A program made the translations under genes and the position numbers. From the NCBI RefSeq assembly GCF_004004565.1, contig NZ_SACM01000002.1, positions 62,001 to 126,000 on the forward strand: a stretch of DNA of 64,000 nucleotides, given 5' to 3'. The notes beneath the pieces were generated by a model. The model made no database searches. It was given only the letters and a program-made list of their open reading frames with translations, and was not told the DNA's origin. Positions 13,222 through 29,500 of the stretch are shown here, piece after piece. Source of the DNA: Inhella crocodyli. Its GTDB lineage: Bacteria; Pseudomonadota; Gammaproteobacteria; Burkholderiales; Burkholderiaceae_C. Numbering within the stretch: position 1 is the first letter of the stretch; every line of letters begins with the position of its first letter.

Positions 13222-13940
<719 letters not shown>

Positions 13941-13986
13941 ACCCCAGGGTGGGCAACGACCGCCAGCGCTCGCCGGGAGGGCGCCC

Positions 13987-15144
13987 GTGTTCCTGACCCA
14001 GCTGCTGCTGCGCAACGCCTTTCGCCACCCGCTGCGCAGCCTGCTCACGCTGCTCGGTCTGGTCGTGGCCATCGCCGCCTTCGGCCTGCTGCGCACCGTG
14101 AACGAAGCCTGGTACGCCGGCGTGCAGGCCAGCTCGGCCACGCGCCTCGTGGCGCGCAACGCCACCAGCCTGACCTTCGTGCTGCCCATCAGCTACGCCC
14201 AGCGCATCCGCGGGGTCGACGGCGTCAGCAGCGTCTCCTGGGCCAACTGGTTCGGCGGCATCTACCAAACCGAGCGCAACTTCTTCCCGCAGTTCGGCGT
14301 CGACCCGGCCAGCTACCTCAAGCTCTACCCCGAGTACGTGATGAGCGAGGACGAGAAGCTGGCCTTCATCAAGGACCGCCAGGGGGCCGTCGTCGGGCGC
14401 AAGCTGGCCAACCAGTACGGCTGGAAGTTGGGCGACACGGTGCCCATCCGCGGCACCATCTACCCAGGCACTTGGAACTTCACCATCCGGGGCATTTGGG
14501 AGGGCCGCGACGCCAAGACCGACGAGAACCAGATGCTGTTCCATTGGCAGCTGCTGAACGAGTCGGTCAAGAAGCGCTTCCCCAAGCGGGGCGATTCGGT
14601 CGGTGTGTTCATCGTGGGCATCGACGACCCCTCGCAGGCCGCCACGGTGGCTGGCCGGGTGGACGCCATGTTCAAGAACTCCCTGGCCGAGAGCCTGACC
14701 GAGACCGAGTCGGCCTTTCAGCTCAGCTTCGTGTCCATGAGCGAGGCCATCCTCGTGGCCATCGAGGCCGTGAGCTACATCGTCGTGCTCATCATCCTGG
14801 CCGTGATGGCCAACACCATGACCATGACGGCCCGCGAGCGCCTGGCCGAGTACGCCACGCTCAAGGCCCTGGGGTTCGGCCCCGGCTTCGTGGCGCGCCT
14901 GCTGCTCGGCGAAAGCCTGCTCATCGCGGCGCTGGGCGGGGCGATGGGCATCGCCGTCAGCTTCCCCATCGCCGCGGCCTTCGGTTCGGTGGTCGGCAGC
15001 GTGCTGCCGGTGTTCGAGATCTCGGCGACCACGATCGCGCTGCAGATCGGGGCCTCGATGGCCGTGGGTTTCATTGCCGCGGCCTGGCCGGCTTGGCAGA
15101 TGGGCCGCATCGACATCGTCAACGGCCTGCGCCATGTCGCCTGA
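13987..15144 (+). CDS. ABC transporter permease, FtsX/MacB-type (first of two)
   Basis: A 385-residue permease with the four-helix MacB-like plan. TM1 is near residues 15-35 ([21 protein letters not shown]). A periplasmic domain of about 220 residues follows, then three C-terminal helices around [25 protein letters not shown] and onward. The C-terminal cytoplasmic [16 protein letters not shown] motif couples to the ATPase. The start is GTG at 13987 with GGGAGGG upstream. It is followed after 12 bases by a second, distinct permease. Confidence 0.9.
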
Positions 15145-16348: not shown

Positions 16349-17287
16349 ATGAAACGCACCCTCACCGCCTTGGCCTTGAGTTTGGGCCTGTTCGCAGGCG
16401 TTCACGCCAAGACCGACTGCCCACCCGTCGCGCAAGCGCCGAGCCAGGAGCAAATCGCCGACAACCTCAAGAACGCCAAGGACCGCGGTGCGCTGTGGAC
16501 CCTCACCAAGGATGGCCGCACCAGCTACCTGTTTGGCACCCTGCACGTCGGCAAACTGCCCTGGGCCTTTCCCGGGCCCCGCCTGATGCAGGCCTTGCGC
16601 GAGACCCAAGTGCTGGCCGTGGAAGTGGACGTGACGGCGCCGAGCACGCAATCGGAGATGCAAGCCGCCATGGCGGAAGCGGCCCCCTTGGCCCTCGGCA
16701 ACAAGGACCAGGCCCGGCTGGACGCCCAGGCCGACGCGGCCTGCGTGCCGCGCACGGCGCTCGCTGCCATGCACCCCGTGATGCAAGCCATCACCTACGT
16801 GGTCCTGGCCGGTCGGCACGAGGGCCTGGACGCGGCCTTTGGCCAGGAACCCAATCTCTTGGCCCTGGCACGGGCCCAGCAGCGGCCGATCGTGTCGCTC
16901 GAATCGATCCGGTCTCAGTTGGGCGTGCTGCTGCCCAAAGACCCTGTCGCAGCCCGCCAGAGCTTCGAGCGCGTGATGGCCGATCTCGAAGCCGGCAAAG
17001 CCCGGAGCCAGATCGCCCGCATCGGCAAGGCCTGGGAGGAGGGCGACTTGGACACCGTGGACAGCCTCGAAAAGCTTTGCCAGTGCCAGCCCACGGCCGA
17101 AGAGCGGGCCTTCAGCAAAGTGTTGAACGACGACCGCAACCCGAACATCGCGCAGCGCATCGCCGAAGAGCACGCCAAGGGCAAGCCCGTGCTGGCCGCC
17201 GTGGGCCTGCTGCACATGACCGGCCCCAAGGCCCTCACGACCTTGTTGGCCGCCCAGGGCTTCGAGGTGCGCCGTGTCGCGTATTGA
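16349..17287 (+). CDS. TraB/GumN family exported protein
   Basis: A 312-residue protein with signal peptide (MKRTLTALALSLGLFAGVHA). The TraB/GumN (TIKI-like) fold is indicated by SYLFGTLHVGKLPW (GTxH motif) at about 60-70 and GLLHMTGPKALTTLLAAQGF (second GxxH motif) near the C-terminus. These two His-containing motifs form the putative metal site of TIKI-type proteases. The Shine-Dalgarno CGGAGA precedes ATG at 16349. It likely acts in the periplasm. The last 14 bases overlap the start of the following small gene. Activity of bacterial members is largely unproven. Confidence 0.85.
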   Translation: MKRTLTALALSLGLFAGVHAKTDCPPVAQAPSQEQIADNLKNAKDRGALWTLTKDGRTSYLFGTLHVGKLPWAFPGPRLMQALRETQVLAVEVDVTAPSTQSEMQAAMAEAAPLALGNKDQARLDAQADAACVPRTALAAMHPVMQAITYVVLAGRHEGLDAAFGQEPNLLALARAQQRPIVSLESIRSQLGVLLPKDPVAARQSFERVMADLEAGKARSQIARIGKAWEEGDLDTVDSLEKLCQCQPTAEERAFSKVLNDDRNPNIAQRIAEEHAKGKPVLAAVGLLHMTGPKALTTLLAAQGFEVRRVAY

Positions 17288-17699
17288 GCTTGGCGGCTGG
17301 GGCGCATGGTTGGTTGGTGCCGCGCTGCTCGTTCCAGGCTGGGTGGCGGCGGCGTCGCCCAGTCCAAGGGGGGCTGCCGACCCTGATGCTGCGGGCTTGG
17401 AGGCCTTGAAGGCTGCGATTGGCGAGCCTCGCTGCCTCACCGATGCGTCCTGCTGGGCGGTGCCCATCGGCTCGCGTCCTTGTGGCGGGCCGGAAACGTA
17501 CTGGCCTGCCTCCCACGACACCAGCGACTCGAAGCAAGTTGCCCGGCTGGCGGAGGCTTGGGCCGCGACTCAGCGGAATCGCGCCCAGGTCAGCGGACGC
17601 CTGGGTGTGTGCACGGTGACCCCCATGCCGGTCATGCGGTGCAATCCGAAGGCACGGCTTTGCGAGGCCATGTCCGAAGGAAACGTCACGGCCCGCTGA
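17274..17699 (+). CDS. Small cysteine-containing exported protein of unknown function
   Basis: A 141-residue product starting at GTG 17274, overlapping the TraB/GumN gene by 14 bases, so probably coupled to it. It has a signal peptide or anchor (GAWLVGAALLVPGWVAAAS). The mature region has Cys residues in RCLTDASCWAVPIGSRPCGGPETYW, a pattern of conserved but unnamed proteobacterial proteins, and two more in GVCTVTP and RCNPKARLCEAM. Several disulfides are likely. There is no catalytic motif. The alternative is a frame extension artefact, but the signal peptide and the conserved CGGPE pattern argue for a real gene. Confidence 0.65.
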   Translation: MSRIELGGWGAWLVGAALLVPGWVAAASPSPRGAADPDAAGLEALKAAIGEPRCLTDASCWAVPIGSRPCGGPETYWPASHDTSDSKQVARLAEAWAATQRNRAQVSGRLGVCTVTPMPVMRCNPKARLCEAMSEGNVTAR

Positions 17700-17743
17700 C
17701 CCGATACGGTGTTGGTGGCGATCGACGCGCTTGGCGGAAGCAC

Positions 17744-19612
17744 CTAGCCTGGCAAATGCAGGGGCACGATCTCGGCGATGCGCTCTGCCACGGTGCCGTG
17801 GCAGGCGCGCAGAGCGTCCAGGGCCGAGTTGGGCAATGGTGCAGTGACATAGTCGGCGCGAATCGGACCGGCCTCCGGCTTGACACCGATGCGCACACGC
17901 CGCACCCGATCGGATTGCGCATGCACCAAAACGCTGGCAACGCCACGATGTCCGCTCGCGTGCCCGTGCATCTTGACCTGCACCTTGCCCAGGCTGAGGG
18001 CCAAGTCGTCGTGCACCAGCAGCACACGCTCGGGCGGGAGCCCGAGGTGCGCCATCAAGCGCACCACGATTTCCCCGGTCCAGTTGACCGGTGCATTGGG
18101 TTGCAAACACAGCAAACTGCAGCCGGCCATGGTCACTGCGGCCCAAGCGCCTGCGGGCGACTCCGTCCATTCGCCGCCCCCACTTCGCACGATGGCTGAC
18201 AAGGCTTCAGCGCCTGCGTTGTGGGGCGTCCCGAGATAAGCGTCACCGGGGTTGCCCAAGCCAATCACAAGCCAATCCCTGGGCCCCAATTGCGGCCACG
18301 GCACACTGGGCACGTCGCGGTCCCATCGGGCTTGTTGCTCGACCCCTGGAACTTGGCCGCGCCGGTCTTGCATGCGGTCGGGACAGTCGCTGCAAAACTG
18401 TTCGCGGCGACAGTCGTCTTGCCAACAGCGCACCTCGTTGCTGCGTGCCAGCACCAAGCGTTGTAGGTGGTCGATCTTCCCCGTGCCCTTCAGCAGCACC
18501 AGGTCGCCAGCCTTCGCATGCTGCGCCAGATGCGCCTGGGCCCCCCACACCGTGTCGAAGGCCCACACGCGCCCGCTTGCCCGACCTTGCACTTCCAATG
18601 CAACGGTGGCCCAAGGGCCGACCACCAGCACTTCGTCGGACACGTCGGCCAGGCGCTGGACGAGCTTGGCGATGTGCTTCTCTTTGCTGGCTCCCTTGGG
18701 TTTGTCCGAAACCTCGCCCAAAACGACCCACTTTCGTGGTGCTTGAGCCTGGGCGAGGAAATTCACGCAAGCGTCCAAGGTCCACATGGGCGCTTTGAAA
18801 TCGTCCCGAATGAAATGAAGGCCATCGGCGGTGGTCACGGGCTGCATGCGCCCGTCGAAGGCGGGAACGCGCGACAGCGCGTCGGCGCACTGTTGGAGGC
18901 TCAGGCCGCAGACCAAGGCCACGCCCACTGCACCGAGTACTGCCGTCACCCAATGATTGCCGCACAGTTGCGTGGTTGCGCGCACCCGTTGGTTGCCGTG
19001 GACGAGCGTGAGGGTCAACCGGTCGGGCCAGTTTGAGCGAACTTCCTCGGCTCGCAAGTCAGCTTGGGCCGCCAGGCCGTAGGTCAGAACGCTCCCGCGA
19101 CATTCAGCCGCCAAGGCCAGGGTGGGCGCGTCGTCGGCGTTCAACACCGCTGTGCCGTGGGCGGGCAAGCCGCGAACCAATGCGGCCAGCTCCTCGGCAA
19201 TGCCCTGCGGGTGGGTGAACGCGGCGGCATGGTCATCGCGGAGCAGGGTGATCAAGGCGACCGAGGGCTGCAACAGTGCGAGGTTCTGTTCCATCACGCC
19301 TGGACGGTCTTCGCTGATTTCGACCAAGCCGTAGTCGTGCCAGGGGCGCAGGCGAACGACCATCTTGGCCACTTCTGGGACAGCGTTCAGCGAGGCTCGC
19401 GTGGCTTCTCCACGCAGGTGCTGCGACAGGATCCCCTGCAGCAATTCCTTCGCGGTGGTTTTGCCTGCGCTTCCGGCCACGCCGATGCAACGGGGGCGCT
19501 TGAGCCACGGGCGGTAGGCCAAGCCGCAGCGCACCCAGACCCGGTCCACGGCGGCGTCGCCCACCTTGGCGCGAAGTCGCCAGCCCAGTGCAGCCCACAA
19601 GTTAAGTGTCAT
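17744..19612 (-). CDS. MurF-like ligase / Cys4 / peptidyl-tRNA hydrolase-like fusion (copy A)
   Basis: A 622-residue, two-enzyme fusion. Residues about 40-390 are a MurF-type Mur ligase: P-loop GVAGSAGKTT (44-53), Glu near 98, RDDHAAAF (His 128), NAD in the central domain, GRM followed by RDDFKAP (about 254-275), and a MurF-like C-terminal LLKGTGKIDHLQ. The UDP-binding N-terminal domain of about 80 residues is missing. A CX4CX5CX2C cluster (396-410) follows. Residues 446-622 resemble Pth: GLGNPG (N454), TPHNAG (H464), VN510 and HDD (D535), but R556 stands at the E. coli Asn114 position. The start overlaps the stop of copy B (ATGA). The neighbours give no function. I infer ATP-dependent amide ligation combined with an esterase-like or RNA-binding domain. 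Confidence 0.85.
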   Translation of the reverse strand: MTLNLWAALGWRLRAKVGDAAVDRVWVRCGLAYRPWLKRPRCIGVAGSAGKTTAKELLQGILSQHLRGEATRASLNAVPEVAKMVVRLRPWHDYGLVEISEDRPGVMEQNLALLQPSVALITLLRDDHAAAFTHPQGIAEELAALVRGLPAHGTAVLNADDAPTLALAAECRGSVLTYGLAAQADLRAEEVRSNWPDRLTLTLVHGNQRVRATTQLCGNHWVTAVLGAVGVALVCGLSLQQCADALSRVPAFDGRMQPVTTADGLHFIRDDFKAPMWTLDACVNFLAQAQAPRKWVVLGEVSDKPKGASKEKHIAKLVQRLADVSDEVLVVGPWATVALEVQGRASGRVWAFDTVWGAQAHLAQHAKAGDLVLLKGTGKIDHLQRLVLARSNEVRCWQDDCRREQFCSDCPDRMQDRRGQVPGVEQQARWDRDVPSVPWPQLGPRDWLVIGLGNPGDAYLGTPHNAGAEALSAIVRSGGGEWTESPAGAWAAVTMAGCSLLCLQPNAPVNWTGEIVVRLMAHLGLPPERVLLVHDDLALSLGKVQVKMHGHASGHRGVASVLVHAQSDRVRRVRIGVKPEAGPIRADYVTAPLPNSALDALRACHGTVAERIAEIVPLHLPG

Positions 19613-21501
19613 GTCTCGGCCTTTCGTGGCGCCTGGCGCAACAAGGTCCGCAGGCGTGCCACCGCCTGCTCAACCCCCGCATTCGCGAGCGCGTGGGATG
19701 ACGGGTCGAAGGGCTTGGTCACGTGGTCGATCCACGATTCGGGGGGCTCGCTGGGGCGCGCCCCGACCTTGATGCGGCAAAAGCCGTCGGACTGGAAGGC
19801 GACCAAGACGGAGTCGATGCCTCGGTGTCCGCCGGCGCTGCCTGCCTGCCGCTGCTTCACCGTGCCCAGGGGCAGCGACAGGTCGTCGTGGACCAACACC
19901 ATTCGCGCGGGCGCCAAGCCCCAGCGCTCGGCGATGCGCCGCAGCGCCGGGCCGGTCAGGTTGATGGCCACTTGGGGCAGCAGCAGGGACACCGAGCGGC
20001 CGTTCAACGAGCCCCGGGCGACATGCATGTTTGTGTCGCGGTGCCAAGTCCATCCTTCCGCCGCGGCCAGGGCCTGCAGCGTGGCGGCACCCAGGTTGTG
20101 CGGGGTGTTGTCGTATTGCGCGCCAGCGTTGCCCAATCCGACCGCGACCCACTCGTCCGCGGCGGGTGGCGCAGCTTGCCATGGGTGTTCCGGGGCGGGT
20201 GCCTCGTCATTGCGGACCGCCGTCGCCCCGTGGTTGGGAGGACGGCTGCGGCGGCCCAATTCCGGGCAGCTGGTGCAGCTGCGCGTCAGGCGACAGTCGT
20301 CACGCCAGCAGTCGACTTGCCTGTCCCGGGTCAGCAGGAGTCGCTCCAAATGGTCTTGCTTGTTGGTGCCCTTGAGCCACACGAGATCCCCAGACCTCAG
20401 CTCGGCGTTGAGAAAGGTCGACAGGTCCAGCACGCTGGAAAACGCCATGCGTCGGGTCGATGGGTGGCACCGAGCGCCCAAGGCCGCCGTCGCCCAGGGG
20501 CCGACGAACAGCGCCAGGTCGACCAGCCCGTTGAGTTGCTCCGCCAGTTGGGCGTAGCGCTTTGCCGCGCCGACGCCAGGCCCAAAGTCGGACAAGCTGC
20601 CGATCACGGCAACCTTGCGCGGGGCCTTCGCTCGCTGCAAGAAATCCAGGCCCGCCGCGACCGTCCAATACGGCGCTTTGTAGTCGTCCCGCACGACGTG
20701 CACCCCGTCGGCGGTGGTAAGCCCTTGCATCCGTCCGCTCAAGGCCGGCAAGCTGCCCAGCACTTGTGCGCACTGCCGCAGTGACAGGCCGCAGGCCAGC
20801 GCGGTGGCCACGGCCCCCAGCACCACCGGCACCCAGTGGCGGCCGTGGAGTTGTGTCGTGGCGCGTGCCCGCTCGTCGCCGTGTACGAGGGTCATCGACA
20901 GCGTGCTTGGCCAGTCGCCGTCAACGTCTTCGGCCCGGACGTGCGCATGGTCGGCGACCCCATACGTGATCACTCGGGCGCTGGTGTGCTCCTGCAGGGC
21001 CGCGATCTCGGGCTCGTCGGCGTTCAGCACCGCGGTGCCAGAGGCCGGCAGTGACGCCAGCAGGCAGGCAAACTCCGCCAAGACCTGCGCCGCGCCCTCG
21101 AATGCGGCCGCGTGGTCGTCGCGACGCAGCGTGACCAGGGCCACGGACGGGCGAAACAAGGCAACGTTGGCGGCCATGGCCCCGGGCTCGTGCTCGGTGA
21201 GTTCTGCCACCGCATAGCGGTGCCAAGGTCGCATCGCCAGCACCACCTTGGCGATCTGGTGCAGCATGTTCAGCGAGCCGGGGTTGGCCACGCCCGGTCC
21301 CGTGGACGCCAGCAGCCCGTGGATCAACTCTTTGGCGGTCGACTTGCCGCCGCTGCCGGTGACCCCAATCGCGATGGGGCCACGCACCCACGGGCGGTAA
21401 ACCCGCGCGAGCCGAACCCAGGCAGCATCGACCCGGTCACTGCCCACCCAAGCGCGAATGCGCCAAGCGAACGAATGGAGGATGGAGCGCAAGCGACGCA
21501 T
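19609..21501 (-). CDS. MurF-like ligase / Cys4 / peptidyl-tRNA hydrolase-like fusion (copy B)
   Basis: A 630-residue paralogue, promoter-proximal to copy A. The ligase part has P-loop GVTGSGGKST (46-55), Glu 100, RRDDHAAAF (His 130), GRM then RDDYKAPYW (about 256-279), GPWATAAL and LKGTNKQDHLERL. The Cys cluster CX4CX5CX2C is at 398-412. The Pth-like part (about 450-630) keeps N458, H468, N514 and D539, again with Arg (560) in place of the E. coli Asn114 and Ile in place of Met67. ATG at 21501 gives an N-terminus collinear with copy A; a longer reading to 21804 would overlap the upstream PEP-CTERM gene antiparallel in frame usage and adds no recognisable sequence. Base composition is like the neighbours, with no sign of recent transfer. 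Confidence 0.85.
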   Translation of the reverse strand: MRRLRSILHSFAWRIRAWVGSDRVDAAWVRLARVYRPWVRGPIAIGVTGSGGKSTAKELIHGLLASTGPGVANPGSLNMLHQIAKVVLAMRPWHRYAVAELTEHEPGAMAANVALFRPSVALVTLRRDDHAAAFEGAAQVLAEFACLLASLPASGTAVLNADEPEIAALQEHTSARVITYGVADHAHVRAEDVDGDWPSTLSMTLVHGDERARATTQLHGRHWVPVVLGAVATALACGLSLRQCAQVLGSLPALSGRMQGLTTADGVHVVRDDYKAPYWTVAAGLDFLQRAKAPRKVAVIGSLSDFGPGVGAAKRYAQLAEQLNGLVDLALFVGPWATAALGARCHPSTRRMAFSSVLDLSTFLNAELRSGDLVWLKGTNKQDHLERLLLTRDRQVDCWRDDCRLTRSCTSCPELGRRSRPPNHGATAVRNDEAPAPEHPWQAAPPAADEWVAVGLGNAGAQYDNTPHNLGAATLQALAAAEGWTWHRDTNMHVARGSLNGRSVSLLLPQVAINLTGPALRRIAERWGLAPARMVLVHDDLSLPLGTVKQRQAGSAGGHRGIDSVLVAFQSDGFCRIKVGARPSEPPESWIDHVTKPFDPSSHALANAGVEQAVARLRTLLRQAPRKAET

Positions 21502-21592
21502 CGATGGACGAAAGCACGTCAGGCTGAGGGGTCCGAGTTTCGTCGTGCAGTCCCGCGCAGGGCGATGGCTGTGAACTCGTACCGCGGGGATC

Positions 21593-21628
21593 CCAGAAAA
21601 CACAACAGGGTGCCGAAGCACCCTGTTG
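21593..21628 (-). terminator. Rho-independent terminator of the PEP-CTERM gene
   Basis: A perfect 11-base stem CAACAGGGTGC/GCACCCTGTTG (21603-21613 and 21618-21628), with a four-base loop, is followed in the reverse direction by TGTGTTTTCTG. It separates the PEP-CTERM gene from the Mur/Pth-like pair, which therefore needs read-through or its own promoter. Confidence 0.85.
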
Positions 21629-21653
21629 GTAGGAGAGAAGGCGACGCCTTCGC

Positions 21654-22424
21654 TTAGGCGGCCTTGCGACGGCGGGCGGCAAAGCCCAAACCGGCCAGAC
21701 CGAAGCCCACCAGGGCCAGCACGCCAGGTTCCGACACCGTGGAGATGCGGAAGCCGAACGGCACGACCGTGGCCTGGTTTTCTTCGGTCGTGAAACCGAC
21801 GCAACCGGCAGCTTTGCCCGCGGCGGCGCAGGCGGCCGGCGGCAGGGTTTGGAACGAACCCAGGCTCAGCGGGAACACCGTGATGGCGTACGTGATGCCG
21901 TCGTAGGTGAACTGCTGGGCGCCAGACGCTTGCGACGGGTTGTCCAGCACGAAGATGTCACGGCACGGGGTGCTGCTGGCAACCGCGCAGGTTTCCACGT
22001 TCGGCGTTTCGACAAACTTGATGTCGATGTTCTGCAGGCTGGGCGGGAAGGTCGGGCCCGGCACCGGCAGGGTGGGCGTCAGCACCAACTGGGCTTGCAG
22101 CGTGGCGGATGCCAACGTCGCACCGAAGATCGGGAAGTTGTTGTGCGTGACAGTCACGCCATTACCGATGCCAGTGTTCGTGGCCACCGTGCCAGCCGCG
22201 GGGTCGGTCAGACTCAGCGAGGAAATGCCGGCGGTCGTGGCGGGCGTGCCCCAGCTCAGCAGTTGCGTACCGACTCCGCTCGTGTTGGCGTTGTCAGTGT
22301 TCTTGGCCGCAGACCACTTCGAGGTCAAGGTGTAGGACCACTGCGTGACCATGGCCGCCGAGGCCGAGGTGCTCAGCGCGAGGGCCACGCCAGCGGCAGC
22401 CGTCAGCTTCAGAAGTTTGTTCAT
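21654..22424 (-). CDS. THxN-type PEP-CTERM surface protein
   Basis: A 256-residue exported protein. The signal peptide is MNKLLKLTAAAGVALALSTSASA. The mature region is Thr/Ser/Asn-rich and predicted beta, with a VTHNNFPI segment matching the THxN motif seen in one PEP-CTERM family, and a Cys pair in ETCAVASSTPC. The C-terminus is a sorting signal: VSEPGVLALVG, a hydrophobic helix and ARRRKAA. The core is SEP rather than PEP, a tolerated variant. Exosortase and archaeosortase-like processing (EpsH type) would cleave here; no exosortase gene is in the window. The start at 22424 follows CGGAGGA at good spacing. A sigma-54 promoter precedes it and a strong terminator follows. Confidence 0.88.
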   Translation of the reverse strand: MNKLLKLTAAAGVALALSTSASAAMVTQWSYTLTSKWSAAKNTDNANTSGVGTQLLSWGTPATTAGISSLSLTDPAAGTVATNTGIGNGVTVTHNNFPIFGATLASATLQAQLVLTPTLPVPGPTFPPSLQNIDIKFVETPNVETCAVASSTPCRDIFVLDNPSQASGAQQFTYDGITYAITVFPLSLGSFQTLPPAACAAAGKAAGCVGFTTEENQATVVPFGFRISTVSEPGVLALVGFGLAGLGFAARRRKAA

Positions 22425-22463
22425 CGTCGTCCTCCGACAAATTGGGTTAGGTGACCAGTGGTT

Positions 22464-22479
22464 AGCAATGCCTGTGCCA
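22464..22479 (-). promoter_or_regulatory. Sigma-54 promoter of the PEP-CTERM gene
   Basis: Reverse strand reads TGGCAC-AGGCA-TTGCT, an exact match to the -24/-12 consensus TGGCAC-N5-TTGCW. It lies 40 bases upstream of the PEP-CTERM start, predicting a leader of roughly 30 bases that contains the Shine-Dalgarno. RpoN together with the PrsK/PrsR two-component system is known to drive PEP-CTERM genes in floc-forming betaproteobacteria, which fits. Confidence 0.8.
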
Positions 22480-22608
22480 GGATCCAATTCGCGCCGAAAA
22501 ACGAAATGCAATCAATGAGTTACAGATCGTTTGCTGGCGACGATCGCCAGGCGGGCTGAGGGGCTGTAAAGCCTTCCGACAAGGTCGACGGGGCGAAGGA
22601 GCGCCGTT

Positions 22609-22641
22609 TGCACCAAGAAAAAGGGGCCCCTGGGGGGCCCC
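22609..22641 (-). terminator. Rho-independent terminator of ssb
   Basis: Palindromic 8-base arms GGGGCCCC (22623-22630 and 22634-22641) are separated by three bases and followed, in the reverse direction, by TTTTTCTTGG. It lies 26 bases past the ssb stop. Confidence 0.85.
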
Positions 22642-22667
22642 GGCGGGGTGCGGTCAAGCGACGCCGT

Positions 22668-23165
22668 TCAGAACGGGATGTCGTCGTCCATGTCGTCGAA
22701 GCTGCTGGCCGGCTTGGGGGCCGGGGCCTGACGCGGGGCTGCCTGGGGCCGCTGCGGGCGCGGGGCGGGGGCGCCGCCGTGGTCGTCGTCGTGGCCTCGG
22801 TTGTAACCGCCACCGCCCGAGCCGCCCTCGTCACGGCCGCCCAGCAGTTGCATCTGCTCGGCGATGATTTCGGTGGTGTAGTTGTCCTTGCCGTCCTTGT
22901 CCTGCCACTTGCGGGTCTTCAAGCGACCTTCGACGTAGACCGGGCGCCCCTTTTTGAGGTACTCGCCAGCGATTTCGGCCAGACGGTCGTAGAACACCAC
23001 GCGGTGCCATTCGGTTTCTTCTTGGCGTTCGCCGCTGTCTTTCGACTTCCAGTTGCGGGTGGTGGCGATGCTGACGTTGCAAACCGCCGCGCCGCTGGGC
23101 GTGTAGCGCAGTTCGGGGTCGCGCCCCAGGTTTCCAAGAACGATGACTTTGTTGACCGATGCCAT
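22668..23165 (-). CDS. ssb: Single-stranded DNA-binding protein
   Basis: A 165-residue SSB that coats single-stranded DNA in replication, recombination and repair. The OB fold is in residues 1-110 ([23 protein letters not shown] at the start, [21 protein letters not shown] in the middle). A Gly-, Arg- and Pro-rich flexible linker follows, and the acidic tip MDDDIPF binds partner proteins. All hallmarks are intact. It is divergent from the M14 carboxypeptidase gene and closed by a strong terminator, so it is monocistronic. Confidence 0.97.
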
Positions 23166-23248
23166 GGCGAGCTCCGCTGTTCAGCGTAAATAGTGGGGCC
23201 GGGATGATACGGGGCAGCGCTGCCGCTGGGGGCTCGAACAATGGGGGC

Positions 23249-24958
23249 ATGCCCTCACTGCCCATCCCCGACTTTGCCCGCTTCTACAAGCACGACGAAC
23301 TCTTGAGCCTGCTGGCCGCTTACGCGGACGCCCGGCCCGACCTGGTGGAGCGCCAGGTCATCGGCCAAAGCTTTGAAGGCCGGGACATCGTGCTGCTGGT
23401 GCTCACCAACCGAGCCACCGGGAACCACGAAGACAAGCCTGCCCTCTGGGTGGACGGCAACATCCACGCCGCCGAACTGCTGGCGTCCACAGCGGTGCTG
23501 TACTACCTGCACCGATTGCTGTCGACCTACGGACAAGACGAGGCCGTCACGCACTTGTTGGACACCCGCACGGTCTACCTCGTGCCGCGCCTGAACCCCG
23601 ACGGGGCTGAACTGGCCTTGTCAGACCGGCCGCGGCACATCCGCAGCAGCACGCGCCGCTATCCCTACGACGAGGCGCCGGTGTCCGGCCTCACGCCGGA
23701 GGACATCGACGGCGATGGACGCATTTTGAGCATGCGGGTGGTCGACCCGCACGGCGGCTGGAAGGCCGACGCCCAGGACCCTCGTTTGATGGTGGCGCGC
23801 GAGCCGGGTGAGTTTGGCGGCACCTACTACCGGGTGATGCCCGAAGGCTTGATTGCCGGCTTCGATGGCGTGCAGATCGCCGTGAACCCGGACCCCGAAG
23901 GCCTGGACCTGAACCGCAATTTCCCGTCCGAATGGCGGCAGGAGTTCGAACAGGTGGGCGCGGGGCCCTACCCGACGAGCGAGCCCGAGGTGCGGGCGAT
24001 GGTCGACTTCATCGTGAAGCACCCCAACATCGGCGCGGCGCTCAGCTATCACACGCACAGCGGCGTCATCTTGCGGCCCAGCACCGCGCGCAGCGACGAC
24101 GACCTCTTCCCCGAAGACCTGTGGCAAATCAAGCGCTTGAGCGCGCTGGGCACGAAGCACACGGGATTCCCCGCCGTCAGCAGTTGGCACGACTTCCGCT
24201 ACCACCCGAAGGAAACGATTTCGGGAACCCAAAGTTGGGTGTACGAACACCTGGGCGCCTTGTTCTGGGTGGTGGAACTGTGGAGCCCCAATCGCGAGGC
24301 CGGGATCAGTGGCTACCACTGGACCGACTGGTACCGCGAGCACCCGGCTGACGACGACCGCAAGCTGCTGGCCTGGGCCGACAGCCTGGGCCCGGATTCG
24401 GCCTTTGTGCAGTGGCGTCCCTTCCAACACCCCCAGTTGGGCGCGGTGGAGATTGGAGGCTGGGACCTGATGAACTTTTGGCGCAATCCGCCACCGGCCT
24501 ACCGCGAGAAGGAAGTCGAACGCTTCCCGGGGTGGATGAACCAGATCGCCTTGAGCCTGCCCAAGCTGGTGCTCTTGCAGACCGAGGTCGAGCGTCTGGG
24601 GCCCGAGAGTTGGCGGGTGCGCATGGCCGTGGCCAACAGCGGCTACCTGCCCAGCACCGTCACGCTGCAGGCCGAGAAGCGGCAGGTGGTGCGGGGCCTG
24701 GTGTTCGAAATTGCCGATGCCGACGATCCGAACGCGCCCCTGCAACTCGCGCCGGGACAGCACCGCCGCGTGCAGGGGGGGCAATTGGCCGGGCATGCGG
24801 CCAAGACGAGCCCCCAAGCCTTTTTGCCGACCAAGGCCATCACGGGCGATCGCGCCCAGGTCCAGTGGTTGATCCAAGCGCCAGTCGGTCAGCGCTTGCG
24901 ATTGCAGGCCAGGCACCCGCGCGCTGGGCTGGTGGACGTGGTCCTGAGCTTGGCCTGA
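23249..24958 (+). CDS. M14 family zinc carboxypeptidase
   Basis: A 569-residue peptidase. The zinc ligands of family M14 are visible: His and Glu in [10 protein letters not shown] (about 74-80), and His in ALSYHTHSG near 270. Arg/Asn substrate residues lie in [11 protein letters not shown], and the general-base Glu is in [10 protein letters not shown]. The N-terminal part is the catalytic domain; the last 150 residues look like a separate beta-rich domain. There is no signal peptide, so the protein is probably cytoplasmic, unlike many family members. ATG at 23249 gives MPSLPIPDF; longer in-frame starts overlap the ssb promoter region. It is followed 13 bases later by ubiA. The biological substrate is unknown. 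Confidence 0.88.
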
Positions 24959-26523: not shown

Positions 26524-27606
26524 TTAGCCCTCGAGTCGGGCCGTGGTGGGGGCGTGGTGGTCGCGCCAGCGCCGACGCAGTTTGTTCAGCAGGTGCGGCA
26601 CCAGCAGGCGAAGGGGCAGCCGCAAGGTGTGCGCGCGCAAGTACAGCAGGGTCTGGGCCCCGCGCCGGGGCCCACTGTCGCGTCGAGGGTGCCAACTGCC
26701 TCCCGCCGCGCGGAACAAGGGCCGCAGCAGGCGGGCCGACACCATGCGCCAGGTGGTCAGGCGCGGCCACGCCGTGGGTGCGGCCCCGAGGCGCGATTGG
26801 CGCTCCCATTGGACCTGCAGCAGCACATCGTCCACGCCGAGTTCGCGGGCACGCTCGGTCAGTCGGGTCTCGAAGGTCGGGTCCTGGCGCAGGCCTTGTT
26901 GGATCAGGGCGTCGATGTCGAGCAGGTCCCGCAGGGCGCGGTCGAACTCGCCACTGAGCACGCTGTGCAGCGCGCTGTGCAGCACCATGTCCTCCGACTG
27001 CAGCGTGCGCAGCTGGCGGTAGCCCGGCACCACCGGGGCGGCAGCGAGCAGGACCTCGGTGTCCACCGGGTAGCGCCCGAGGGGTGGGGAGATTGCGTGG
27101 TGCAGGTCCACGGTGCTGCCGCGGCGCACGTGGGTCACGGGGGGGACTTCGTGGGACCACTCGCGGTAGAAGCGCTCGTCGTGCGCATCGCCGCGGAGGT
27201 CGCCGATCCAGCCCGCGGCCATCAGCGCGCCTTCGACCCAGGCCAGGTCCGAGCGACGGACCAGCAAGTCCAAGTCGCCGAACTGCCGATGGGCGGCGAA
27301 GGGCAGGTTCAAGGCCACGTAGGCCGCGCCCTTGAGCAGCACCCAGGGCACGTCCAGCGGCTCGATCGCGGCCGCCAAATGGCCAATCTCGCGCTGCATG
27401 TGCTGCAGGCGCAGCGTTTGCAAGTGCAGTTGGGCTTGCAAGTGGGCCTGGGCCTGCGGCGGCGCTGGCAATGCCCCGGATACCGCGGCCAAAGCGGGCA
27501 ACAGGCCCGAGCTTCGCGCCTCCGCGATGCGGTCCGACCAGGCACGGGGCGTGGTCGGCGCAGTGGTTTGGGGACGCCGCAGCACATCGAGCAGGGGATC
27601 ACGCAA
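26524..27606 (-). CDS. Nucleotidyltransferase family protein of an HPr-rel-A cluster
   Basis: A 360-residue protein of the NTP_transf_5-like kind. The nucleotidyltransferase core is VLLKGAAYVALNLPF followed by the paired acids in RQFGDLDLLV (Asp near 111 and 113), with a third candidate acid in STVDLHHAI. The C-terminal 150 residues are helical and basic, ending in an Arg-rich tail. A TTG start at 27606 is preferred because AGAGGAG precedes it by seven bases and it overlaps the kinase stop by eight; an ATG at 27636 is also in frame. The NMP acceptor is unknown. The gene is a regular companion of HprK-related kinase A and the PqqD-like protein. Confidence 0.78.
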   Translation of the reverse strand: MRDPLLDVLRRPQTTAPTTPRAWSDRIAEARSSGLLPALAAVSGALPAPPQAQAHLQAQLHLQTLRLQHMQREIGHLAAAIEPLDVPWVLLKGAAYVALNLPFAAHRQFGDLDLLVRRSDLAWVEGALMAAGWIGDLRGDAHDERFYREWSHEVPPVTHVRRGSTVDLHHAISPPLGRYPVDTEVLLAAAPVVPGYRQLRTLQSEDMVLHSALHSVLSGEFDRALRDLLDIDALIQQGLRQDPTFETRLTERARELGVDDVLLQVQWERQSRLGAAPTAWPRLTTWRMVSARLLRPLFRAAGGSWHPRRDSGPRRGAQTLLYLRAHTLRLPLRLLVPHLLNKLRRRWRDHHAPTTARLEG

Positions 27607-28522
27607 GGCCGAACTCCTCTTGGGTGATCGAGGCAATGGCTTGCAGCGCGGCCGCCAGCGACCCGTAGCGGGCGTGGTGGCAGGTGCTGCGCGCGAGCAT
27701 GGCGGTCAAGGCCTGGAACGCGGGCAAGCCCAGTTGCTCGGCGTTGAAGCTCTGGCCCATCAGGTCCAGCAAGGTGGCGGGGCGGGGCAGGGGGGTGATC
27801 ACGGTGCTGGCCTCGGCCGCGAACTGCGGAAACACCACCCATGCTGGCGTGGCCGGCTCGTCCAGCCGGGCCACGTGCTCGGGCAGGGGCTGCAGGTGGG
27901 CGATGCTGCCTTTGACCGTGTCGTGCGTGACTTGGGTGAACACAGCACGAGGGCTGAAGCCTCGGATGAGGTCGATCGACCTGTTTTTCAGGCTCACGCC
28001 CCGGCCCAAGGGCAGCAGGCGGGGCTCGGGCTCCATCGTCAGCAGGGCCAACTCGTCGGTGAGCAGGCGCCAGCCGCTGAGCATCAGGGCGGCGCACAGG
28101 GTGCTCTTGCCCGAGCCCGGCGGCGCAGGCATGACCAGGGCGCGCCCTCCGCGCTCCAGCACGGCGGCGTGGATGAGCACGTGGTGCTTGACCTGGCTGG
28201 CCACGCACCAGTTCATCGCCCACTCCAGCAGGGGATTGGCGTGGGCCACGGGCATCAAAGCGAAGGGCCGCTCGCCGTTGGAACTGAAGGCCAACTGCCA
28301 GCCGCCCTTCGGTCGCCACACGCGCTCGACGGCCACGTCGAAATCGACGAAATCCTCAGGGCCGGCCACAGGGTGGCGGCCGTAAAGCACACCCAAGTGG
28401 TCGTCGATGGCGGGCTGGTCGGTGCGCAGACGGTAGACAAAGGGGCCGGTGCGCAGCAGCAGGCCGTCGCCGCGCAGGCGCCGGCGGCGTTCAGCGGCCC
28501 CCAGTTCGTCCAGGCAGGTCAT
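27599..28522 (-). CDS. HprK-related kinase A
   Basis: A 307-residue relative of HPr serine kinase. A P-loop PAPPGSGKST lies at about 132-141, preceded by HVLIHAAVLERGGRALVMP, as in the HprK core. The N-terminal 110 residues are a separate domain rich in aromatic residues. Unlike true HprK it is not next to PTS genes. It overlaps the PqqD-like gene by four bases (ATGA) and the nucleotidyltransferase by eight, so the three are one translational unit. In database naming this is the HPr-rel-A system. The phosphorylation target is unknown; the nearby exported protein is one candidate. Confidence 0.85.
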   Translation of the reverse strand: MTCLDELGAAERRRRLRGDGLLLRTGPFVYRLRTDQPAIDDHLGVLYGRHPVAGPEDFVDFDVAVERVWRPKGGWQLAFSSNGERPFALMPVAHANPLLEWAMNWCVASQVKHHVLIHAAVLERGGRALVMPAPPGSGKSTLCAALMLSGWRLLTDELALLTMEPEPRLLPLGRGVSLKNRSIDLIRGFSPRAVFTQVTHDTVKGSIAHLQPLPEHVARLDEPATPAWVVFPQFAAEASTVITPLPRPATLLDLMGQSFNAEQLGLPAFQALTAMLARSTCHHARYGSLAAALQAIASITQEEFGLA

Positions 28523-28803
28523 GGGGTCCACTCCCGGACCAGGCCCAAGGTCACCAACTCGTTCAGGGCGCGGTCCACGGCCGCCGCCTGCTCGGCGGGA
28601 TCGTCGTCGGGGTACTCGGCGCGCAAGGCGGCTTTGACCGCCTCGGTGTCCATCGCCTGGGTGCAGATTCGCTCCATGACGGCCCACGGCAATTCGGTCA
28701 GCAGGTGCAAGCCCCCATCCCGGGCGTCAAAGAGCACCGCCTGGCCGTCGGCCGCAAACACCGTCAGGCCTTCGAGGTGGGCAAGGTAGCGCGTCGGGTT
28801 CAT
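28519..28803 (-). CDS. PqqD-like peptide-binding protein of HPr-rel-A system
   Basis: A 94-residue protein with the PqqD fold, a small winged-helix domain that in other systems (PqqD, RiPP recognition elements) binds a precursor peptide. Typical elements are AVLFDARDGGLHLLTELPWAVMERI, where the ligand-binding beta hairpin and helix lie, and ELVTLGLVREW at the end. The start at 28803 is 10 bases beyond a terminator-like hairpin. It is coupled by ATGA to the kinase. It implies that a peptide or protein is recognised by this cluster, but no short precursor peptide was found nearby. Confidence 0.82.
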   Translation of the reverse strand: MNPTRYLAHLEGLTVFAADGQAVLFDARDGGLHLLTELPWAVMERICTQAMDTEAVKAALRAEYPDDDPAEQAAAVDRALNELVTLGLVREWTP

Positions 28804-28812
28804 GGGGCAATG

Positions 28813-28843
28813 AAAAGGCCGGCCGCCTTTCGGCGCCGGCCTT
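28813..28843 (-). terminator. Terminator or attenuator between exported protein and PqqD-like gene
   Basis: Arms AAGGCCGGC (28815-28823) and GCCGGCCTT (28835-28843) pair perfectly, with an inner extension of three pairs and one bulged base, and are followed in the reverse direction by TTTTCA. It stands between two genes that appear to belong together, so it may reduce rather than stop transcription into the kinase genes. Confidence 0.7.
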
Positions 28844-28867
28844 GACCGACACAAAGGTCTAGGAGCT

Positions 28868-29500
28868 TCAAGCGGGCTGGTGCGTTTCCAGATACGCCTT
28901 GATGAAGGCCAACGCGTCGGCGTTGCCCTCCATGTACAGGCTGGTGATCTGTTGCGACGTGAACGGGAAGTTGTCGTTGGCGTTGTACTCGTACTGCACC
29001 TCGTTGGAGCGCGCATTGAGCCAGGCGCCCAGCCAGTGGCGGTCGTTGGCGCTGGAGAAGCCGCTGATGCTCATCACTTCCCACATCGTGGCGGTGCGAC
29101 CACTGACCTGAAGCGCGCCGCCCGGCAGGGCCGTGGTGTAGGGCAGGTCCGGCAGCGTGGCCATGCCGCCTGTCCAGCGTTTGGCCTTGACTTGGTTGTT
29201 CTGGCCCCACCATCCCGGGCTGTACCCGCCGCAGGTCTTGGTGCCTGGCGTACCGCTCAAGAACGCGCCACCCTTGTACTGGCCGGTGCGCTGGGCGTTC
29301 TGGAACGACTGCCAACCCGACAAGGAGCACACGATGACCGGGTAGGCGCCGCCGGCTCCGGTGCTGGTCACCAGGCGTTCGCCGGTGGTGGCCATGGCCA
29401 CGAGCGGCGCGCCGCCGCTAGCGGCGGCCACGCTGGCGCCCTTGAGCAGCGCACGGCGCTTGGCGCCGGCCGTGGGGGCGGAGGTGGGGGTGTCAGACAT
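28868..29500 (-). CDS. Exported protein with Tat-like signal, next to the HPr-rel-A genes
   Basis: A 210-residue protein. Its N-terminus has AKRRALLKGASVAAA (about 13-27), resembling a twin-arginine leader, though the usual Phe-Leu after RR is Ala-Leu. Cleavage is likely near AMA (about 37). The mature part has two cysteines (C58 in VIVCSLSGW and C90 in TKTCGGYSPGWW). The CGGYSPGWW segment recalls the Cys...PGYW motif of some bacterial surface proteins. The C-terminal half is aromatic-rich (DRHWLGAWLNA, EYNANDNFPFTSQQ). I do not recognise a family. It is first in the reverse-strand cluster and could be the substrate of the kinase or nucleotidyltransferase. Confidence 0.78.
   Translation of the reverse strand: MSDTPTSAPTAGAKRRALLKGASVAAASGGAPLVAMATTGERLVTSTGAGGAYPVIVCSLSGWQSFQNAQRTGQYKGGAFLSGTPGTKTCGGYSPGWWGQNNQVKAKRWTGGMATLPDLPYTTALPGGALQVSGRTATMWEVMSISGFSSANDRHWLGAWLNARSNEVQYEYNANDNFPFTSQQITSLYMEGNADALAFIKAYLETHQPA

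Follow-up and report, generated by a model that had tools for sequence, protein, structure and literature searches.

Two adjacent genes of Inhella crocodyli, here called A and B, each encode in a single chain a ligase of the Mur type, a four-cysteine motif (Cys4) and a domain of the peptidyl-tRNA hydrolase (Pth) family. They lie in a window of 64,000 nucleotides, by which we mean the whole stretch of DNA that was analysed. Fourteen such fusion proteins were found in seven genomes (labelled G000, which is I. crocodyli, G027, G280, G502, G822, G1006 and G1065), in 1, 2 or 4 copies, with multiple copies in tandem. Our conclusion is that the fusion family is real and rare, that no earlier description of it turned up in our searches, that it is not MurF, and that it is best filed among exopolysaccharide-associated amide ligases. 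Tentatively, and with slightly less than even confidence, we read A and B as accessory amide ligases of an exopolysaccharide pathway of the exosortase-A (XrtA/PEP-CTERM) type, the Pth half being an active esterase. The link to the XrtA pathway has fair support; the involvement of tRNA is a step that we infer.

Domains and motifs of the two fusion genes

19609..21501, minus strand: gene A, 630-residue Mur-Cys4-Pth fusion (P0002), with helices at 2-38, Mur at ~43-381, Cys4 at 398-412, a low-confidence linker and Pth at ~450-624
17744..19612, minus strand: gene B, 622-residue Mur-Cys4-Pth fusion (P0001)
20266..20310, minus strand: Cys4 of gene A, CWRDDC...CTSC, residues 398-412 (coordinates computed from residue numbers)
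18383..18427, minus strand: Cys4 of gene B, CWQDDC...CSDC, residues 396-410 (coordinates computed from residue numbers)

The start of gene B lies over the stop of gene A in a 4-nt overlap (ATGA). We take the ATG at 21501 as the start of gene A because homologues begin about there; the mechanical open reading frame (ORF) extends upstream to a TTG at 21804. In both proteins Pfam finds, in the same order, Mur_ligase_M (8e-24 and 6e-23), Mur_ligase_C (8e-14 and 4e-8) and Pept_tRNA_hydro (2e-30 and 2e-35), all above the Pfam cut-offs and far past chance. The initial annotation of this DNA had described two adjacent same-strand genes sharing the order Mur, Cys4, Pth, which the ORFs, the Pfam domains and the ATGA overlap bear out, and the P-loop, Mur and Pth motifs that it quoted are present.

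Among the NCBIfam models of Mur ligases, TIGR01143 (MurF) matches best, at 175.7 and 170.8 bits, and does not reach its cut-off of 288.6; the matches start at model positions 75 and 59 of 418. Pfam detects no N-terminal Mur domain at E ≤ 1 in either protein, and no ATP-grasp domain. In a structure model of the gene A protein, two helices (residues 2-38) stand where MurF has its UDP-binding domain. This model, built from 11 sequences, has a mean predicted local distance difference test score (pLDDT) of 81.8 and a predicted template-modelling score of 0.63, and its pLDDT falls below 50 at residues 404-440 (the end of Cys4 and the linker) and 553-559, so that the relative placement of the Mur and Pth halves is not fixed. 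The ten best Foldseek matches to it are all MurF structures; a search of a viral structure library gave no meaningful match. The P-loop GxxGK is kept in all 14 fusions, one Propionivibrio copy reading GKTM instead of GKTT. Every fusion also carries RDDxKAPxW[TS], at the place where the canonical MurF of I. crocodyli reads DSYNANP, and an invariant Glu100 that aligns with a MurF glutamate, one which we take to have a role with Mg.

Pth normally releases peptides from tRNA, and by sequence the second half of the fusions is a Pth. Both proteins exceed the 100-bit cut-off of TIGR00447 (Pth), at 110.4 and 118.3 bits. When aligned to the canonical Pth of I. crocodyli, all 14 fusions keep N10, H20, N21, N68 and D93 (E. 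coli numbering), and all have Lys or Arg at positions 105 and 133, positions that in the E. coli enzyme bind the tRNA 5'-phosphate. The fusions read PHN where the canonical protein reads RHN, and position 114, an Asn in E. coli numbering, is Arg in 11 of them and Lys in three. In T. thermophilus Pth, according to passages of PMC11994314, an Arg stands at the place of Asn114, Ala there markedly lowers kcat/Km, and stabilisation of the oxyanion, the role of Asn114, is ascribed to this Arg; positively charged residues occur at the same place in some Pths of other thermophiles. Since Arg is functional at this place in T. thermophilus, the change at 114 is no evidence of inactivity, and the Pth half of the fusions looks catalytically competent. 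Intact active sites in both domains, which had been named beforehand as support, are what the P-loop and the Pth core residues N10, H20, N68 and D93 show in 14 of 14.

Distribution, Pth-less relatives and paralogue arrays

The genome sets searched overlap in part, and counts per set are not additive. A family search matched two of 100 genomes, I. crocodyli, which has two copies, and G027, which has an array of four. The search of the order, at 1e-60, matched four of 399, with the full fusion in G000 and G280 and a Mur-Cys4 protein only in G206 and G411; within its own family (22 genomes) G280 is the sole match. Five of 369 genomes matched in the class search (full in G000 and G822, Mur-Cys4 only in G582, G786 and G809), and three of 249 in the family of G502, the genome to which the Propionivibrio locus L016 belongs; these three, G502 with four copies, G1006 and G1065, all carry full fusions. 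A pattern scan of contigs gave at least 80 loci, from which we draw no distribution, and of which L016 to L019 were used further. Among 72,556 plasmids and 50,697 phages nothing matched the fusion over 80% of its length, and one scan of viral contigs with six peptide patterns gave no fusion match.

The initial annotation had looked for tandem pairs across many Burkholderiales. The distribution is instead sporadic, in 1, 2 or 4 copies, with two of the 399 genomes of the order holding the full fusion. Neither of two outcomes named beforehand, a fusion confined to a single genome or an assembly error, was found: six other genomes carry the fusion, which rules out an assembly artefact. A TGA inside the first G027 match is the ORF's own stop, overrun by the match, and the ORF is open for 629 residues.

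Twelve further proteins have the Mur part and the four cysteines and end without a Pth half. They come from G206, G411, G582, G786, G809 (two), a Gemmobacter plasmid, a Thermoleophilia metagenome-assembled genome (MAG), an Acidobacteria MAG (two) and a Terriglobia MAG (two). All 14 fusions and 11 of the 12 have the cysteine spacing C-x4-C-x5-C-x2-C, that of G411 being one residue longer; two of the 12 (G206 and L017) have RDDxKAPxW[TS]. Because the Pth-less proteins share the spacing, Cys4 belongs to the Mur subfamily. The motif had been taken for a linker, and it does lie between Mur and Pth; it is more than that, since it forms the C-terminal tail in a Mur subfamily whose members also occur without Pth. 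A tree of all Mur sequences, from which G411 was omitted and in which the G280 row begins at a chosen place in the open frame, its start codon not proven, groups the Pth-less G206 with the fusion of G822 (support 100/98). Judged from this grouping, either Pth was added to one branch of the Mur-Cys4 family or it was lost from some members. The tree of the Pth half had no starred (supported) branch and was set aside.

Three loci bear on the wider Mur relatives. The Mur-Cys4 protein of G786 was called at 598 residues, with about 180 extra at its N-terminus (L146, 12152-13948). A Sulfitobacter plasmid protein of 1021 residues with a C-terminal Mur ligase match (L015, 10036-13101) adjoins condensation-domain genes and lies near a type I polyketide synthase. 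In the Terriglobia MAG (L019, 2127-15401) there is a possible biosynthetic cluster in which two large genes of nonribosomal peptide synthetase (NRPS) size and likeness are followed by the two tandem Pth-less Mur-Cys4 genes and then by two GNAT-like genes, which match the GNAT protein of G280. The second NRPS gene has condensation, adenylation, carrier and thioesterase domains. This cluster shows that relatives of the fusion ligases also sit with carrier-bound amino acids.

Two genomes hold arrays of four, and we compared the four G027 copies with the four Propionivibrio copies region by region. At Mur residues 66-115, a window picked after viewing the alignment and lying directly after the P-loop, copies 1, 2, 3 and 4 pair with 1, 3, 4 and 2, all four as reciprocal best matches, with a mean identity of 71% for paired and 45% for non-paired copies and a bootstrap of 1.00; random 4x4 tables give four reciprocal best matches in 2.9%. 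The N-terminal helices favour the same pairing (0.77), the rest of the Mur half hardly (0.01 and 0.14) and the Pth half not at all (0.00). Propionivibrio copies 2 and 3 (L016, 8316-12141) share about 400-500 bp at 99-100% identity, the rest being mostly at 60-76%; this is either recent gene conversion or a collapse in MAG assembly, and it mixes part of the remaining sequence. Because only the stretch after the P-loop, which we take to line the acceptor pocket in Mur ligases, clearly pairs the copies one-to-one, the copies probably act on different Mur substrates and have one Pth task in common.

Genomic setting

TIGR03098, the marker acyl-CoA ligase of XrtA loci, is above cut-off in all seven fusion genomes and in 33 of 200 genomes of the order. 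Among Mur-Cys4-only genomes it is found in one of five (G206, and not G411, G582, G786 or G809), a count that leaves out the genomes of L014, L017, L018 and L019. Fisher's exact test gives p = 0.027 within the 200 order genomes, assuming that these lie within the 399 and hold only the G000 and G280 fusions, and p = 0.010 for fusion against Mur-Cys4-only genomes.

In three of the seven genomes (G280, G502 and G1006) the fusion lies inside an XrtA locus. Names of neighbours come mostly from BLAST against 16 reference proteins of G280 and G206, among the matches listed. In G280 a pair of ATPgrasp_ST genes stands on one side of the fusion and a run of XrtA genes on the other: TIGR03099 decarboxylase (606 bits), TIGR03098 acyl-CoA ligase (799 bits), a GNAT gene (Acetyltransf_6), a DegT-like gene, an acyl carrier protein (ACP) and the hydrolases TIGR03101 and TIGR03100; the acyltransferase TIGR03694 lies on the side opposite to this run. 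The four Propionivibrio fusions (L016) are flanked on one side by an ATPgrasp_ST pair and on the other by genes for hydrolase 1, hydrolase 2, ACP, ligase and decarboxylase; DegT-like and GNAT-like genes lie farther along, the latter, by BLAST, ~2.5 kb past the acyl-CoA ligase. The G1006 fusion lies between a UDP-glucose/GDP-mannose dehydrogenase gene, directly upstream, and hydrolase 1, hydrolase 2 and ACP; the decarboxylase is ~9 kb and the ligase ~13 kb off, and an MBOAT gene is also present. Nucleotide-sugar dehydrogenase genes are neighbours in L017 as well.

The array of G027 sits in a glycan cluster with shared genes: GNAT and DegT-like genes, then the four fusions, then an ATPgrasp_ST pair, with a polysaccharide flippase nearby and the XrtA ligase on a different contig. 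Thus two ATPgrasp_ST genes adjoin the fusions in three genomes (G280, G502 and G027), and in two (G280 and G027) the gene run that holds the fusion also contains GNAT Acetyltransf_6 genes. The 16 stretches scanned show no pattern that would point to a dedicated tRNA gene beside the fusions; in L154 a tRNA-Leu runs into the 3' end of the fusion ORF as called, and L017 holds a tRNA-Lys.

Some further observations concern these loci. Small secreted-looking proteins that share G-P-[YF] near their start occur in or near XrtA loci (L134, 14717-15403; L010, 11671-12417; L155, 14200-14856; L147, 11060-11866); both of those scanned (L010 and L155) gave tetratricopeptide repeat matches, and in two cases a GNAT gene is adjacent. 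Just before the G027 array, a GNAT-like gene (L010, 13663-14815) is split into overlapping frames (13663-14418 and 14267-14815), either by a draft frameshift or because it has decayed. The sole ATPgrasp_ST gene found in I. crocodyli (L136, 8304-9410, contig C10) is ~165 kb from the fusions, in surroundings that by eye we take to resemble a histidine operon (hisA and hisF nearby).

In the window itself, the surroundings of A and B contain the following:

21654..22424, minus strand: THxN family PEP-CTERM protein (NF038125, 229 bits, cut-off 85), directly upstream on the same strand, linked to the pair by position only
22464..22479, minus strand: exact sigma-54-type site, TGGCAC-N5-TTGCT, upstream of the PEP-CTERM gene
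21603..21628, minus strand: terminator-like hairpin between the PEP-CTERM gene and gene A (weak: 2 sites in 17200-23300, with 5.0 expected in shuffles)
27599-28531, minus strand: HprK-related kinase A (TIGR04352)
28519-28803, minus strand: PqqD-family chaperone of the HPr-rel-A cassette (TIGR04353)

The sigma-54-type site is the only one without mismatch among 36 matches in the window with up to two mismatches, 44 being expected, so the total is not above chance. Such a site upstream of a PEP-CTERM gene is an arrangement described by Haft et al. 2006 (PMC1569441). The hairpin suggests that A and B are transcribed separately or by read-through. The kinase and chaperone genes belong to an HPr-rel-A cassette (26524-29500, minus strand, 5 kb from the fusions), which has two more genes without an NCBIfam match; genes that look similar by eye lie near the G027 XrtA locus (L147).

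Proposed function and comparison with known systems

In the reading we prefer, the Mur half, lacking the UDP-MurNAc-binding domain, would use ATP to activate a carboxylate as an acyl phosphate, to be joined to an amine. The likeliest carboxylate would be a uronic-acid or acyl group on a glycan or carrier-linked precursor, and the likeliest amine an amino acid. An amide on a glycan precursor is suggested by the dehydrogenase neighbours in G1006 and L017, and by the precedent of a known exopolysaccharide in which galacturonic acid carries amide-linked Ala and Ser, from a different organism and with no link to genes (PMC4663550). The natural substrate of the Pth half would be an N-acylated aminoacyl ester; passages of PMC11994314 name N-acetyl-aminoacyl-tRNA as the shortest Pth substrate. 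In the simplest scheme, the Mur half would acylate the amino group of an aminoacyl-tRNA, giving an N-blocked aminoacyl-tRNA, whose ester the Pth half would then cleave to yield an acyl-amino acid and free tRNA. The scheme is attractive because such an acylation would yield exactly a Pth substrate, and release would wait for ligation since Pth acts on N-blocked aminoacyl-tRNA. Tandem copies would have different Mur substrate pockets and a common release step. Mur ligase genes beside those of tRNA-using cyclodipeptide synthases are noted in passages of PMC2922099.

Amide chemistry, glycan substrate, tRNA and release we infer alike from domains, residues and gene context. In its fullest form, with ligation and release on tRNA within one chain and the four-copy arrays serving as an assembly set, one Mur substrate each, for an amino-acid-bearing exopolysaccharide, the proposal is in our view unlikely. 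The Pth residues are compatible with the initial guess that an amide bond could be formed on an RNA with an aminoacyl or peptidyl group attached; that picture was incomplete, containing neither the link to XrtA loci with ATP-grasp and GNAT genes nor the Pth-less Mur-Cys4 proteins.

Several observations weigh against the reading of A and B as XrtA-pathway ligases with an active Pth half. In I. crocodyli the XrtA locus is on contig C9 and the A-B pair elsewhere, beside a PEP-CTERM gene only, from which the hairpin separates gene A, and no XrtA-locus gene was found in the 20 kb examined in G822 and G1065. The XrtA statistics come from small samples of related genomes, with I. crocodyli as the index case, and their background was drawn from the order only. 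The pairing of the arrays depends on a window chosen with the alignment in view. The existence of Pth-less Mur-Cys4 proteins means that Pth is dispensable for the basic reaction, and 14 of the 16 stretches scanned for tRNA genes, not all of which hold a fusion, have none. In the gene A model the loop directly before residue 560 (553-559) has a pLDDT below 50, and the model therefore does not define the geometry of the changed residue.

In the main rival to release from tRNA, the fusions belong to the same pathway and the Pth half hydrolyses some other ester (on a carrier, for instance, or an O-aminoacyl or O-acyl sugar, produced by acyltransferases of the locus) and so edits or releases what the Mur half makes. 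We consider this possible, if somewhat unlikely. XrtA loci include genes for acyltransferases, an ACP, an AMP-ligase and two hydrolases, G1006 has an MBOAT gene, and a carrier-bound amino acid is plausible given that the Terriglobia Mur-Cys4 pair follows NRPS genes. However, a small-molecule esterase would have no obvious need for the basic residues kept in all 14 fusions at positions 105 and 133, where K105 and R133 of E. coli Pth bind tRNA.

It is improbable that the Pth half is instead a non-catalytic tRNA- or RNA-binding module delivering aminoacyl-tRNA to the Mur half, in the manner of plant CRS2, a Pth relative with no known hydrolase activity. Protein and profile searches do also match solved CRS2 structures, yet all 14 fusions retain the catalytic residues checked even though the Pth halves of the I. 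crocodyli copies are only ~29-45% identical to the others. It is very unlikely that the fusions are housekeeping spares, a duplicate MurF/Pth set that serves peptidoglycan or, under stress, the recycling of peptidyl-tRNA. TIGR00447 is indeed exceeded and TIGR01143 is the best Mur model, but the I. crocodyli genome (3.76 Mb, 17 contigs) carries a separate canonical murF and a separate canonical pth, so that the fusions are extra genes and we reject simple spare copies of the two; the missing UDP-MurNAc-binding domain and the 175.7 and 170.8 bits against a MurF cut-off of 288.6 also argue against it, and arrays of four diverged copies with an XrtA link fit it poorly. A role in defence, as a toxin-antitoxin system or in a mobile element has the least to recommend it: the distribution is patchy and a Pth could conceivably counter a tRNA-acting toxin, but PADLOC gave no match for the three proteins scanned, PHROGs matched the Pth half only, to an unnamed family, phages, plasmids and viral contigs held no full-length match, and several copies reside in exopolysaccharide loci, leaving a phage, plasmid or defence origin without support from these searches.

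To our knowledge, the amide linkage of amino acids to bacterial exopolysaccharides is poorly understood. XrtA loci are important for flocs and biofilms and hold many genes without assigned chemistry; a ligase domain and an intact Pth active site in one protein offer a direct handle on amino-acid decoration, and the paralogue arrays a natural specificity series. If the tRNA step is true, it would tie the translation machinery to the decoration of surface polymers by a route of which we found no description, an ATP-plus-tRNA way to the amide bond apart from the ribosome, NRPS, FemXAB and stand-alone ATP-grasp chemistry.

That the fusion is not a recognised family, as first proposed, holds in so far as no NCBIfam model covers it and we found no paper describing a Mur ligase-Pth fusion, with or without exosortase, nor any work joining exosortase, exopolysaccharide and ATP-grasp, in a search that covered few subscription papers and no domain-architecture database. 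Among the papers listed by looser searches (20 of 105, 8 of 658 and 8 of 39) no title deals with this architecture. Passages of PMC12419801 and PMC2922099 mention Mur or ATP-grasp ligases and no Pth fusion, and those of the Aquincola floc paper (PMC9850573) mention neither Mur ligase, ATP-grasp nor tRNA hydrolase.

Among known systems, MurF (TIGR01143) has in common with the fusions the central ATPase and C-terminal domains, the P-loop, the aligned Glu and the best Foldseek matches; the fusions differ in having no UDP-binding N-terminal domain, RDDxKAPxW for DSYNANP, a Cys4 tail and a score below cut-off. With Pth (TIGR00447) they share N10, H20, N68 and D93, a score above cut-off and, as in T. 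thermophilus Pth, an Arg at 114; they differ by the fused ligase, by Arg or Lys at 114 in every copy, by PHN for RHN and by coexisting with a canonical pth elsewhere in the genome. The XrtA loci of Haft et al. 2006 (PMC1569441) are shared to the extent that TIGR03098 is present in seven of seven genomes and the fusion lies among genes of the TIGR03098/03099/03100/03101 type in three, while a word search of that paper's main text finds neither a Mur ligase nor a Pth, 'Mur' occurring once, in a cited title on MurNAc.

Sugar-transfer associated ATP-grasp (PF14397) and GNAT amidoligases, genes of amide-ligase type in glycan loci, are said to have been described by Iyer et al. in 2009. They adjoin the fusions in three genomes; their fold differs, and Mur-Pth would be an additional type of ligase. 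Cyanophycin synthetase combines ATP-grasp and Mur chemistry in the synthesis of a peptide polymer, and the Mur half matches it weakly; it has ATP-grasp and Mur in one chain and no Pth, whereas beside the fusions ATP-grasp is encoded by separate genes. For cyclodipeptide synthase operons, passages of PMC2922099 already propose a tRNA-using enzyme and a Mur-type ligase side by side; there the two are separate genes, the tRNA-using enzyme has another fold, and there is neither a Pth nor an exopolysaccharide context.

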